A DNA stretch of 64,000 nt from Helcobacillus massiliensis. GTDB taxonomy: Bacteria; Actinomycetota; Actinomycetes; Actinomycetales; Dermabacteraceae. The notes beneath the pieces were generated by a model. The model saw nothing but the letters and a program-made list of their open reading frames with translations. It did not search any database and had not been told where the DNA came from. A program made the position numbers and the translations under genes. Below are positions 46,131 through 52,329 of this stretch, piece by piece. Position 1 is the stretch's first letter. Every line of letters begins with the position of its first letter. Location of the stretch: NCBI RefSeq assembly GCF_014191425.1, contig NZ_JACHWP010000001.1:310001-374000 (forward strand). Direction: 5' to 3'.

Positions 46131-47279
46131 ATGAGCGGGAGACTCCTCTCATCCCTTCCAGGCACCGAGCTGGCCGCGGCGTTCTCGCGCGCGATCAGAC
46201 TCGCCCAGAAGGGACCACGCAGCGCCAACCCCCGAGTGGGCGCCCTCCTGATTCTGCCCAGCGGCGACACCGTGGAGGGCTGGCACCGCGGCGCCGGCAC
46301 GCCCCACGCCGAAGCCGACGCACTCGACCGCGCCCGCGCCGCCGGTCACGATCCCCGCGGCGGGACCATGATCGTCACGCTGGAGCCGTGCGCCCACAGC
46401 GGCCGCACCCCCTCGTGCGCCCGGGGCCTGATCGACGCCGGCGTCACCGCCTGCCTGTTCGCCCACGCCGACCCCACCGAACGGGCCGGCGGGGGAGCGG
46501 ACCTGCTGCGGGCCGACGGCATCACCGCCCTCACCTGGGTCGACGCCGTCGCTCACACCGACCACGCCAGCACCCCCGGCGACGCGGCTGCGGCGAAATC
46601 GCTGACCGCGGATGCGCAGCGGCTCAACGACCGGTGGATGCGTGCCCAGGCGGAACGGCGGCCCTTCGTCACTGCGAAGATCGCACAGACCCTCGACGGC
46701 TTCACCGCCGCTCCCGACGGCACCAGCCAGTGGATCACCTCCCACGAAGCGCGCGCCGCCGGGCACCGACTGCGCGCGCATGTCGATGCGATCGCCGTCG
46801 GCACCGGCACCCTCATCGCGGACGACCCGCGCCTGAGTGCCCGCACCCCCGCAGGCGACGCTGCGCACCAGCCGCTGCGCGTCGTGATCGGGCAGCGCCC
46901 GGTGCCTGAGGGGTCCGCCGTCATCGGAGCCGACGGGCGCTTCGTCCACCTCGCCACCCGAGACCTGCCGGCCGCGCTCACGCAGCTGCGCCGAGAGCAC
47001 GGCGTGGAGCACCTCCTGATCGACGGCGGCCCCACCCTCATCGGGGCGGCACTCGCCGCGGACCTCATCGATGACCTGTGGGTCCATATCGAGCCGACGC
47101 TCCTCGGCGCAGGCCGGCCCAGTGTTCTTGGCCTGAACCCGTCGACCCTCACCGACCGCCTGGACTTCGACGCTGATGCGCCCGAAATCCACGGCACCAC
47201 CGTCACCATCCACGCCCGGCCCCGCCCTGCAGCGCCGCAGGCCGATACCGCGGGCACCCCCGACCGGAAGGACGTCTGA
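46131..47279 (+). CDS. ribD: Bifunctional pyrimidine deaminase/reductase RibD
   Basis: 382 residues. N-terminal deaminase: HAEADAL and the zinc motif TLEPCAHSGRTPSC. C-terminal reductase: FVTAKIAQTLDGF, DGTSQWITSHEAR, GTGTLIADDPRLSAR and HLLIDGGPTLIGAAL. It carries out two steps of riboflavin synthesis (EC 3.5.4.26 and 1.1.1.193). First gene under the FMN riboswitch; RBS AAAGGAAC. Stop overlaps ribE. Confidence 0.95.
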   Translation: MSGRLLSSLPGTELAAAFSRAIRLAQKGPRSANPRVGALLILPSGDTVEGWHRGAGTPHAEADALDRARAAGHDPRGGTMIVTLEPCAHSGRTPSCARGLIDAGVTACLFAHADPTERAGGGADLLRADGITALTWVDAVAHTDHASTPGDAAAAKSLTADAQRLNDRWMRAQAERRPFVTAKIAQTLDGFTAAPDGTSQWITSHEARAAGHRLRAHVDAIAVGTGTLIADDPRLSARTPAGDAAHQPLRVVIGQRPVPEGSAVIGADGRFVHLATRDLPAALTQLRREHGVEHLLIDGGPTLIGAALAADLIDDLWVHIEPTLLGAGRPSVLGLNPSTLTDRLDFDADAPEIHGTTVTIHARPRPAAPQADTAGTPDRKDV

Positions 47280-48034
47280 TGTTCACTGGAATCGTTGAAG
47301 CGAAGGGACGGATCGTCGAGATCCGCGATTTCGGCGGCTCCCTCACCCGCCTCACCGTGTCGGCACCCGCGGACCTCATCGCGGATCTGCAGCACGGTGC
47401 CTCGATCGCCGTCAGCGGGGTCTGCCTCACCGCCCTGGCCGAGCCTGCTCCCGAGCACGCACCCGGAGAGTCCGCTGCCACCACCGACGCCGCGGACCCG
47501 GGCGCTGCCGCCACAGCGCTGTTCACTGCCGACGTCATGGGGGAGACCCTCGCCCTCACCACGCTCGGCGGTGCGAGAGTCGGTGACGAGGTCAACCTGG
47601 AGCGCTGCACCCGCGCCGGCGACCGGCTCGACGGGCACATCGTGCAGGGCCACGTCGATGCGGTCGGGACGGTCGTGGACCGCCGCGACGAGGGGCAGTG
47701 GCGCCGTCTGCGGGTGCAGATCCCGTCGGCCCTCGCCGGTCAGATCGCCCAGAAGGGTTCGATCGCATTGGACGGCGTCTCCCTCACCATCACTGAGGTG
47801 TCCGTGCCGGGCGCTGCGGAGCCCTTCGCGGAGGTCGCGCTGATCCCCGAGACGCTGCGCGCCACCACCTTGGGGCGCGCATCCGTCGGCACGAGGGTGA
47901 ACGTGGAGACCGACGCGATCGCGAAGTACACCCAGCGCCTCCTCGCCGTCGCCGCCGCGCGGCCCGCCCCAGCATCCGCGTGCGACCGCTCCACCGCTGC
48001 ACCCGCCGACGCCCCGAAGGAGGCCCGCGCATGA
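47279..48034 (+). CDS. ribE: Riboflavin synthase alpha chain
   Basis: 251 residues, longer than the usual 200-215. Two repeated lumazine-binding barrels: [12 protein letters not shown] with [13 protein letters not shown], and [24 protein letters not shown] with [15 protein letters not shown]. The extra length is an Ala/Asp/Pro-rich insert after the first barrel and a C-terminal tail. It converts two lumazine molecules to riboflavin (EC 2.5.1.9). ATG overlaps ribD by 1 bp and the TGA overlaps ribBA. Confidence 0.93.
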
Positions 48035-49356
48035 CGCTCCGACTCACGCCCCTGCCCGATGCCCTCGACCAGCTGCGCGCCGGCCGACCCGTCGTTGTGC
48101 TCGACGACGAGGACCGCGAGAACGAAGGCGACCTCATCCTCGCCGCCGAACTCGCCACCGAGGAGCAGATCGGCTTCATGGTCCGCCACACCTCCGGCTA
48201 CCTCTGCGCCCCCATCACCCCGGGCCGTGCACGCCGACTCGGCCTGCCGCTGATGGTGCCGAACTCCGAGGACCCGAAGCTCACCGCCTACACCCTCACC
48301 GTGGACGCCCGCCACGGCACCACCACCGGCATCAGCGCGCACGACCGCGCCCTCACCGCCCGCACCCTCGTCACCGGGGAGGCTTCCGACCTCATCCGGC
48401 CCGGTCATCTCGTTCCGCTGATCGCTCGTCCCGGCGGTCTGCGCGAACGCCCCGGCCACACCGAAGCCGCCACCGACCTCGCCCGCCTCGCAGGGCTCCG
48501 GCCAGCCGGGGTGATCGGCGAGATCGTCCACGACGACGGCTCCATGATGCGCGCGCCCGCCCTCGCCGCGTTCGCCGCCGAGCACGGCCTTGCGATCATC
48601 ACGATCGAGCAGATCCTCGCCAGCGGCCTGCTGGAGGAGCTCGATGGGCACGCCGCATCCGTCGGCCGGCCGCAGAGCGCCGACGGCGCCGACGACCCCG
48701 ACGGTGCCGCCGATGGTCGCGGCGAGGGAGCTGACGACTGCTCTGACGGCATCGCCGCCAGCGACCCCATCGACCTGCCCACCCCGCACGGCACGTTCAC
48801 CGCCCGCGCCTGGCAGACGGAGCGCGGCGAGCACCTCACCCTCACCGCCGACGGCCCCGACCGCATCAGCGCCCCCGGGGCCGACGGAAGCCCCAGCGCC
48901 ACAGTCCGCCTCCACTCCGAATGCCTCACCGGGGATGTGTTCGGCTCCCACCGCTGCGACTGCGGCGAACAGCTCGACGCCGCCCTCACCGCGATCGCCC
49001 GCGACGGCGGCACCCTGCTGTATCTGCGCGGACACGAAGGCCGCGGCATCGGCCTGTTCAACAAGCTGCGAGCCTACGCCCTCCAGGACCGGGGCGCGGA
49101 CACCGTGGACGCCAACCGCGACCTCGGCCTGCCCGTGGACGCGCGGCTCTACACCGACGCCGCCGGCATCCTCCGCCGCCTCGGCCTCACCGAGGTCGAC
49201 CTCATCACCAACAACCCGGTGAAGGCGGCGGCGCTGGAGGCCGACGGAATCCGCGTCCGCTCTATCCGCAGTGCCGAAGTGCCGGCGCGCGCGGAGAACA
49301 CCCGATACCTCGCCACCAAGCGCGACCGCATGCACCACATGCTCACAGCGATCTGA
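48031..49356 (+). CDS. ribBA: Bifunctional DHBP synthase/GTP cyclohydrolase II
   Basis: 441 residues from ATG 48031 with AAGGAGG upstream. RibB half: [25 protein letters not shown] and [21 protein letters not shown]. RibA half: [23 protein letters not shown] with zinc cysteines, [26 protein letters not shown] and the substrate-site [11 protein letters not shown]. The insert between domains (about 210-260) is Ala/Asp/Gly-rich. It makes both entry precursors of riboflavin (EC 4.1.99.12, 3.5.4.25). Confidence 0.95.
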
Positions 49357-49405
49357 CCACCCCACCACCAACTCGCACACTCCGCAGAATCGAAGGAGAC
49401 TTCTC

Positions 49406-49888
49406 ATGGCCGGACACGGCACCCCCTCCACCCCGCTCGCCCCCGCAGAGAACGGTCCCCGCTCCATCGGCATCGCCGCTGCCTCCTGGCATGCGCAGAT
49501 CATGGACTCGCTGATGGACGGCGCCCGGCGCGCCGCCCGTGACGCCGGCATAGACGACATCGTCGAGATTCGGGTTCCCGGCTCGTTCGAGGTCCCGATC
49601 GCGGCGCAGTCCCTCGCCCGTGCGACCGACGTGGTGGTCGGCCTCGGCGTGGTGATCCGCGGAGAGACCCCGCACTTCGAGCACATCGCAAGCGCCGCCA
49701 CCTCGGGCCTCGCCCAGGTGGCTCTGGAGGAGTCCACCCCGGTCGGCAACGGCGTGCTGACCGTGAACACGCAGGAGCAGGCGATCGCCCGCGCCGGGGG
49801 AGAGGGCGCGAGCGAGGACGCCGGCTATGCCGCAGCGGAAGCGGCGATCCGCACCTACCGGGCGATTGCAGAGGTCCGCGGCCGCTGA
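49406..49888 (+). CDS. ribH: 6,7-dimethyl-8-ribityllumazine synthase
   Basis: 160 residues from ATG 49406 with GAAGGAG upstream; an N-terminal disordered 18 residues then the core AAASWHAQIMDSLMDGA, VPGSFEVPIAAQSLA, GVVIRGETPHFEHIASA and NGVLTVNTQEQA. Substrate-binding residues are in place (EC 2.5.1.78). Last gene of the rib operon, 50 bp after ribBA. Confidence 0.95.
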   Translation: MAGHGTPSTPLAPAENGPRSIGIAAASWHAQIMDSLMDGARRAARDAGIDDIVEIRVPGSFEVPIAAQSLARATDVVVGLGVVIRGETPHFEHIASAATSGLAQVALEESTPVGNGVLTVNTQEQAIARAGGEGASEDAGYAAAEAAIRTYRAIAEVRGR

Positions 49889-50191: not shown

Positions 50192-50268
50192 GGTGGTCGT
50201 AGCTCAGTTGGTAGAGCTCCTGGTTGTGGTCCAGGCGGTCGCGGGTTCAAATCCCGTCGATCACCCCA
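50192..50268 (+). tRNA. tRNA-His(GTG)
   Basis: Acceptor GTGGTCG/CGATCAC with one G-T pair, G-1 opposite discriminator C, anticodon stem CCTGG/CCAGG with loop TTGTGGT (anticodon GTG), T-loop GTTCAAATC. CCA is encoded. Confidence 0.95.
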
Positions 50269-50272
50269 GTGC

Positions 50273-50308
50273 CCCGGGACACCGCTGCAGCGGTGTCCCG
50301 GGATTTTT
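50273..50308 (+). terminator. Terminator of tRNA-His
   Basis: CCCGGGACACCGC (50273-50285) pairs perfectly with GCGGTGTCCCGGG (50290-50302), loop TGCA, then ATTTTT. Confidence 0.9.
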
Positions 50309-50403: not shown

Positions 50404-52329
50404 TCACTGCGGGTTGTCGAGCAGCCCCCGTCGGACCCCTTCTGCGAGCGACGGCCACACCGGCAGTCGCGGAATCAGCGTGGCCTGCACGGCGTGGTAC
50501 GCATCCGGCTTCCCCCGCCACACGGTCGTGGACGGCTCCAGGTCAATGTCCAGCTCGTGGTGCCAGGACCCGCCCGCGGGGTCGATGAAGTCCTCAGCGA
50601 TGTGCTCCCACCACTGCTGGTAGAGGTCCGCCCACCGGCGGTCACGGGTGGTGCGGTAGGCGACCGCGGCGGCGCCGACGGCTTCAGCCGCCACCCAGTG
50701 CATCCGCTCGCGCGCCACCGGCTCGCCCTGCCAGTCCACCGTGTACGGGAACCCGCCCGTGCCGTCGATGCCGTCGAACTCAGCGGCGCGGTTCATCAGA
50801 GCGAGCGCGCACTCCAGCATCCACTGCGGCTGATCCTGACCCTGCTGGGCGAGACCGGCGCGGGCCGTCAGCGTCAGGCGCGCCCACTCGAACCAGTGGC
50901 CGATCGTCGCGCCGTAGGGGCGGAACGGATCCGCGCGGTTGTCCGTGTTGAACTCCGGCAGCATCTCCCATTCGGAGGAGTAGTGCTCGGGCAGCAGCCA
51001 GTCGTTGTCGCGGGCGAACTCGTTGACAGCGCGCTTGATGATCCCCACCGCGATCTGCAGCAGGTCCAGGCGGTCGAGCACATCAGCAGCGGCGAGCAGC
51101 GCCTCCACCGTGTGCATGTTCGCGTTGATGCCGCGGTACTCCTCCGTAGAGGAGAAGTCCCTGGTGAAGCTCTCACGGACCATGCCCTCGGTGCGGTCAT
51201 AGAACCGTTCGAGCAGAACCTCGAGCGCGTCATCGAGGAGCGCGCGGGCACCGGGGCGGCCAGCGGCCGTAGCGGACGCGGCGGCGAGGACCACGAACGC
51301 GTGCGCATACGCGCTCTTCGAATCCCCCGCGACCGAGCCGTCGAGGGCGACCTCATCGAACCAGCCGCCGTGCTCGGCATCGGAGAAGACATCGCGGAGG
51401 GCGCGCACACCGTGATCGGCGAACTGCCCGGCTTCCGGGTTGCCGAGCATGGAGGCCAGGGAGAACACGTGGGTCATGCGGCAGTTGATCCACAGTTCCC
51501 GATTCTTCGACTCGTCGATCTCGCCGGTCTCATCGAGCCAACCGAAACCGCCCTCATCGAGCGCGGAGCCGGCAGCGAACTCGAGCAGGGCATCGCCCTC
51601 GCTGGCGAGCCAGCGGGCGTGAGTGGGGGAGTCCAGCCAGGTGACGCTCGCGGGGTGGTCACCCTCCGCATCGGCCGCGTCCGCGGCACCGGAGGAATCG
51701 GCGGAGCCGTCGGCCGGGAGCTCGAAGCGCTTCGCCTGCACCTTCAGATAGTCGGTGGTGGGGCCGGGCGCGGAGACGAACATCGCCTCCCGGTAGTACT
51801 TCAGCTCCTGGATGGATTCGCGGATATCGGCGAGGGCGCGGTGCCCGCCGTGCTTCTGCGGCGTGTTGAAGAAGACCCGCGGCAGCCACCGCTTCGCCAG
51901 CTCCTTCAGCGAGGACACGTCGATTGTGCGGTAGGAGAGGTAGCTCTCGAACAGGGGCAGGTCGCGCTCCAGGAACGCTCGGTCGGTGCCCACGCTGTTG
52001 CCGGCGAGCGGCGCCTTGCCGGGCTCCGGCACGTACTGGCGGACGTACTCCAGACACTGCTGCTGGGCCTCTTCCAGAGTGACCCCGTCGGCCAGCTCCT
52101 CCAGCAGACCGGAGTCGGTGTGCATCTGGCGGACGAAGTCGTTCATGGACTCGATTGCGCCCTCCGGCGGGCGGATCACGATGTCCACACCGTCGCCGAG
52201 GACGGTGAGGTCGGCGTCGGTGACGAGGACCGCGACTTCGATGAGGGCGTCCTCGGCCTTGTCCAGGCCGGTCATCTCGCAGTCCACCCAGACGATTCGG
52301 TTGCTGACAGTGTTCTTCGTGCTCTTCAC
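50404..52329 (-). CDS. orn: Oligoribonuclease fused to a YihS/AGE-type sugar isomerase
   Basis: 641 residues in one uninterrupted frame. Residues 1-205 are a complete Orn with the DEDDh set D16, E18, D116, H163 and D168 (WVDCEMTGLD, NSVGTDRAF, HRALADI). A 20-residue Ala/Asp/Ser/Gly linker follows. Residues 228-641 are an N-acylglucosamine-2-epimerase-fold protein of YihS/mannose-isomerase type: NCRMTHVFSLA, GWFDEV, NANMHTVEALL, HWFEWARL, ERMHWVAAEAVGA, GGSWHHELD and GKPDAYHAVQATLIPRLP. So one chain would join a 3'-5' exonuclease for 2-5 nt RNA with an aldose-ketose isomerase. The GTG start (52329) is the only candidate near the Orn N terminus. Confidence 0.88.
   Translation of the reverse strand: MKSTKNTVSNRIVWVDCEMTGLDKAEDALIEVAVLVTDADLTVLGDGVDIVIRPPEGAIESMNDFVRQMHTDSGLLEELADGVTLEEAQQQCLEYVRQYVPEPGKAPLAGNSVGTDRAFLERDLPLFESYLSYRTIDVSSLKELAKRWLPRVFFNTPQKHGGHRALADIRESIQELKYYREAMFVSAPGPTTDYLKVQAKRFELPADGSADSSGAADAADAEGDHPASVTWLDSPTHARWLASEGDALLEFAAGSALDEGGFGWLDETGEIDESKNRELWINCRMTHVFSLASMLGNPEAGQFADHGVRALRDVFSDAEHGGWFDEVALDGSVAGDSKSAYAHAFVVLAAASATAAGRPGARALLDDALEVLLERFYDRTEGMVRESFTRDFSSTEEYRGINANMHTVEALLAAADVLDRLDLLQIAVGIIKRAVNEFARDNDWLLPEHYSSEWEMLPEFNTDNRADPFRPYGATIGHWFEWARLTLTARAGLAQQGQDQPQWMLECALALMNRAAEFDGIDGTGGFPYTVDWQGEPVARERMHWVAAEAVGAAAVAYRTTRDRRWADLYQQWWEHIAEDFIDPAGGSWHHELDIDLEPSTTVWRGKPDAYHAVQATLIPRLPVWPSLAEGVRRGLLDNPQ

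Follow-up and report, generated by a model that had tools for sequence, protein, structure and literature searches.

Fusion of oligoribonuclease to a YihS-type sugar isomerase in Brachybacterium and in a separate branch of its family

The window analyzed here, a stretch of DNA 64,000 nucleotides long, contains a single open frame in which an oligoribonuclease (Orn) is joined to a sugar isomerase of the AGE superfamily. The encoded protein is probably bifunctional, with two domains and two independent activities on one chain. We found no description of an Orn–isomerase fusion in the open-access literature, in line with the initial annotation, which knew of no described protein of this type. The architecture brings two known families together in a new and seemingly undescribed way, and the arrangement is kept throughout a genus. 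Orn is a housekeeping nuclease of wide conservation, and here the C-terminal half of its chain is a metabolic enzyme unrelated to it, both in a whole genus and in the separate branch that includes the window. There is also a consequence for annotation: a fusion gene named after one half conceals the other.

The gene lies on the minus strand, with a GTG start at 52329, a stop at 50404–50406, and 641 codons. Its parts are as follows.

50404..52329, minus strand: Orn–AGE fusion protein, single open frame, 641 aa
51715..52329, minus strand: Orn domain, residues 1–205 (curated-model match, nearest structures, residue alignment)
51727..51756, minus strand: predicted C-terminal helix of Orn, residues 192–201 (predicted model)
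51640..51714, minus strand: linker, residues 206–230, rich in Ala, Asp and Ser and predicted to be disordered (linker sequences, predicted model)
50404..51639, minus strand: YihS-type AGE-fold isomerase domain, residues 231–641 (profile matches, structures, residue alignment)

Pfam matches to RNase_T (residues 13–175, E 1.5e-22) and GlcNAc_2-epim (residues 260–616, E 2.5e-100) fall in the two halves of the protein. An AlphaFold2 model based on 26 fused sequences (mean pLDDT 81.6, pTM 0.73) has disorder between the domains, with pLDDT below 50 at residues 211–225; of the two domains, Orn is modeled less confidently. The initial annotation had proposed an uninterrupted frame with a disordered linker between its domains. 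The frame is there, and the linker (residues 206–230) is predicted to be disordered. The initial annotation named no strand; an open frame on the plus strand, covering the same bases, was taken as spurious, a reflection of the real gene in DNA of high GC content.

The N-terminal half was expected to be a complete Orn with all five DEDDh residues, and it is. It scores 253.9 bits against the NCBIfam oligoribonuclease model NF003765 (cut-off 106), and D16, E18, D116, H163 and D168 are invariant in 36 sequences, fused or split. Equally invariant in this set are the phosphate-cap residues S112, Y133, R134 and S139 and the wedge residue L22. In Orn of V. cholerae, a phosphate cap (S108, Y129, R130, S135) and a base wedge (L18) select dinucleotides (PMC6613908). 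A domain search of the window's genome found no nanoRNase of the DHH/NrnA type, so Orn may do all of the nanoRNA removal there, and its essentiality in this genome is plausible. M. smegmatis survives knockout of orn (PMC9676404). Across the order, a survey with PF01368 gave a DHH-domain protein in 0 of 35 genomes, while 13 of 14 control genomes, Corynebacterium included, had a match.

The C-terminal half had been described as a full-length AGE-fold isomerase with its characteristic histidines, and this too holds. The whole PF07221 profile (AGE superfamily; positions 1–347 of 347) is matched with 336.6 bits, against a cut-off of 23.4. Residues H406, H478 and H612 align with the active-site residues H176, H248 and H383 of YihS and, together with R284 and E481, are invariant in 36 sequences. 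Such a three-histidine center is typical of YihS-type enzymes (PMC7762179). Foldseek comparison of the modeled domain with YihS gave TM scores of 0.93–0.96 (of target). At two positions the fusion family departs from YihS: P468 and H591, invariant in all 36 sequences, occupy the places of R238 and Q362, which we take to be sulfosugar contacts of YihS. This substitution makes sulfoquinovose an unlikely substrate. The NCBIfam D-mannose isomerase model NF051846 gave 445.3 bits (relatives, 380–508), below its cut-off of 600, and so does not fix the substrate; the isomerase may still use mannose, though it is not filed as an equivalog of that family. Our best guesses, made from sequence, are free mannose/fructose or lyxose/xylulose. 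An isomerase relative from outside the family (L062, Arcanobacterium phocae) adjoins genes for a PfkB sugar kinase and a LacI regulator, which fits use of a free sugar. In the window's genome, the fusion is the sole AGE-family gene found, by a search that gave no match to its E. coli control and whose sensitivity may be limited.

We then compared the locus across related genomes. The initial annotation had suggested a search for the same architecture elsewhere, and it is present in all 27 Brachybacterium genomes sampled, as the same single frame, with 61–65% identity and no internal stop. The sample includes B. halotolerans and B. equifaecis, several of its genomes are single-contig assemblies, and a partial Brachybacterium MAG (L049) agrees with the fused architecture. 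Outside the family, no full-length match to the fusion was seen among the matches listed for 297 genomes of the order, a search in which any fusion would be expected at the top of the ranking, or in 246 genomes of the phylum. Nor were orn and the isomerase gene adjacent in any of the loci checked outside the family.

In eight further genomes from the family, orn and the isomerase gene are separate neighbors, in the same order and on the same strand: Dermabacter hominis (G005), a Dermabacter MAG (G008), Helcobacillus massiliensis (G012), G004, G010, Dermabacteraceae TAE3-ERU5 and TAE3-ERU27 (G001 and G006), and Micrococcales bacterium 31B (G002). The orn stop overlaps the isomerase start in G008 (ATGA) and G002 (GTGA), and the two lie one to four bases apart in G004, G001 and G006. 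In the Dermabacter/Helcobacillus group, the gap is about 40 bases and includes a ribosome-binding-like site. At four loci of the Dermabacter group (L028, L029, L038, L039), the isomerase is in the frame of orn, after one TAG and 13 sense codons, and an AGGAG site precedes its ATG. Readthrough of this TAG would produce a fusion protein, but it is unlikely in Dermabacter, given the ribosome-binding-like site and ATG that follow and the fact that the Helcobacillus isomerase is out of frame. These side-by-side relatives provide natural before/after pairs, in which the effect of linking unrelated enzymes can be tested directly.

Across the fusions, the linker is unconserved and varies in length from 16 to 51 residues. 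Between related fused genes, compared in ten pairs, dN/dS was 0.03–0.17 for Orn and 0.05–0.26 for the isomerase; for the linker it was mostly 0.2–1.0, with one pair at 0.04, values that are rough owing to the few sites. These ratios indicate that both domains are under purifying selection and that the linker is drifting. The lack of conservation, along with the predicted disorder, speaks against an interface built on the linker. The linker and the first 30 isomerase codons of the window gene are free of in-frame ATG, GTG and TTG, which rules out an internal start of this kind. To be made separately, the isomerase would therefore have to use an unusual start codon or lack part of its domain, and it can hardly be produced alone from this gene. 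In the linkers of four Brachybacterium loci (L005, L008, L030, L049), a purine-rich stretch precedes an in-frame GTG, and an internal isomerase start is possible in these four.

The surroundings of the gene bear on where the isomerase came from. Two features lie next to the fusion gene.

50193..50268, plus strand: tRNA-His, anticodon GTG, convergent with the fusion gene; belongs to the ancestral orn/tRNA-His neighborhood
50273..50302, plus strand: intrinsic-terminator-like hairpin, 13 pairs followed by a T run (consensus scan only), between tRNA-His and the fusion gene

Of 15 outgroup loci checked (Micrococcales), 13 have tRNA-His immediately after orn. Within the family, the isomerase gene separates orn from tRNA-His. 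From this contrast, the isomerase gene probably arrived between orn and tRNA-His and was fused afterwards. The strand of tRNA-His relative to orn flips between lineages. Also in the window, at 46131–49888 on the plus strand, is a set of overlapping genes that, by eye, we take to be a riboflavin cluster (ribD-ribE-ribBA-ribH).

In a tree of rpoB and UPF0182, the window's genome groups with the split G008 and with Dermabacter/Helcobacillus (support 100), not with Brachybacterium. The Orn and isomerase trees agree in part only, with support that is weak in places. Monophyly of the fused genomes was rejected by AU test for both rpoB+UPF0182 (p = 0.00045) and Orn+isomerase (p = 0.000077). By these trees, the fused genes are not monophyletic, and either two fusions or one fusion followed by a fission took place. 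On the rpoB+UPF0182 tree, the two histories have equal cost, at two events each. We favor two separate fusions because, in the split relatives, start and stop still overlap in the coupled manner of the outgroup. The other history would place one ancient fusion before the split between Brachybacterium and the window–Dermabacter lineage, with the genes split again in the common ancestor of G008, Dermabacter and Helcobacillus. Its event count is no higher, but the ATGA overlap of G008 resembles the GTGA of outgroup G002 and looks ancestral rather than like a broken fusion. Moreover, gene fission is generally a rarer event than fusion, which also counts against it. We regard a fission as possible but somewhat doubtful.

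The explanation we prefer is a bifunctional protein with independent domains. Its N-terminal half would be an ordinary Orn hydrolyzing diribonucleotides, and its C-terminal half an ordinary YihS-type aldose–ketose isomerase, whose substrates are most likely free mannose/fructose (or lyxose/xylulose). The isomerase gene would have come to lie between orn and tRNA-His in a family ancestor, following orn in a pair with overlapping ends and, probably, coupled translation. Once the orn stop was lost and the two frames fell into line, the genes would have been joined through the Orn tail. This would have happened in the Brachybacterium stem and in the window's lineage, either separately or with both keeping one older fusion. 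The domains would act independently, held by a flexible tether beyond the tail of the Orn dimer. Any gain would go no further than synthesis at a fixed 1:1 ratio or co-assembly, with no chemistry passed between the sites.

Alternatively, the two activities could be functionally coupled, with the fusion itself selected: the isomerase might sense a sugar or nucleotide, or supply one, and so set how active Orn is, or it might itself be regulated by what Orn produces. Retention in all the sampled Brachybacterium genomes, perhaps through selection for linkage, would fit such coupling, and so would a fusion that, given the absence of monophyly, may have arisen twice. Yet the linker is fast-evolving and variable in length, neither half has anything out of the ordinary among its catalytic residues, and split-gene relatives manage without the fusion. 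The initial annotation had read the linkage as coupling of RNA or cyclic-dinucleotide turnover to carbohydrate metabolism. The covalent linkage of an intact Orn to an intact AGE isomerase stands, conserved in 27 Brachybacterium genomes, but the c-di-GMP part of that reading is disfavored. Neither the window's genome nor any of the Brachybacterium genomes tested gave a GGDEF domain, in a search whose control worked, and pGpG is therefore not a likely signal here. Overall, we consider functional coupling unlikely. Rather less probable still is the particular version in which fusion was selected twice because the activities affect each other, for example with the isomerase modulating Orn according to sugar or nucleotide state. 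If true, it would tie the final stage of RNA decay directly to carbon use, by a route other than c-di-GMP.

Two further readings deny that a single two-domain enzyme exists in the cell. Cleavage in the linker after translation would release two separate enzymes. The linker is disordered and drifting, and nothing conserved in it needs to stay joined; on the other hand, no motif that a protease could read is conserved in the linkers of all fusions, and we think such processing quite improbable. A sequencing or assembly error could have joined two genes, and the occurrence of two genes in relatives had been put forward as a sign of just this. Eight genomes do have two genes, but the error is refuted by the 27 independent Brachybacterium genomes with the same frame, several of them in one contig and with linkers that differ from each other. 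We see virtually no chance that the fusion is an artifact. Each half of the fusion protein can be compared with known enzymes.

Like the actinobacterial Orn proteins of M. smegmatis (MSMEG_4724, PDB 7wik) and Blastococcus (PDB 9f7m), the fusion has the full nuclease domain, the DEDDh residues and the phosphate cap, with 54–55% identity in structural alignment. Foldseek gave TM scores of 0.73–0.79 between the modeled domain and actinobacterial Orn, and up to 0.85 to human REXO2. The C-terminal tail helix is shared with M. smegmatis Orn as well, although in the fusion it is a prediction. In M. smegmatis, this helix packs on the other subunit and stabilizes the dimer (PMC9676404). The fusion point lies beyond the predicted helix (residues 192–201), and the Orn dimer should therefore be undisturbed. 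Unlike 7wik and 9f7m, which are stand-alone proteins of about 210 residues, the Orn of the fusion continues from its tail through the linker into an isomerase of 411 residues. From the curated D-mannose isomerase family (NF051846), whose score it does not reach, the fusion differs by its attached nuclease. Its closest likeness on the isomerase side is to YihS of E. coli (2rgk) and Salmonella (2afa, 2zbl, 7ag4), with about 41% identity over 411–422 columns. The predicted domain superimposes on these structures with an rmsd of 1.4–2.2 Å and with the three active-site histidines aligned. Those YihS proteins are stand-alone enzymes, whereas here the isomerase is joined to Orn.
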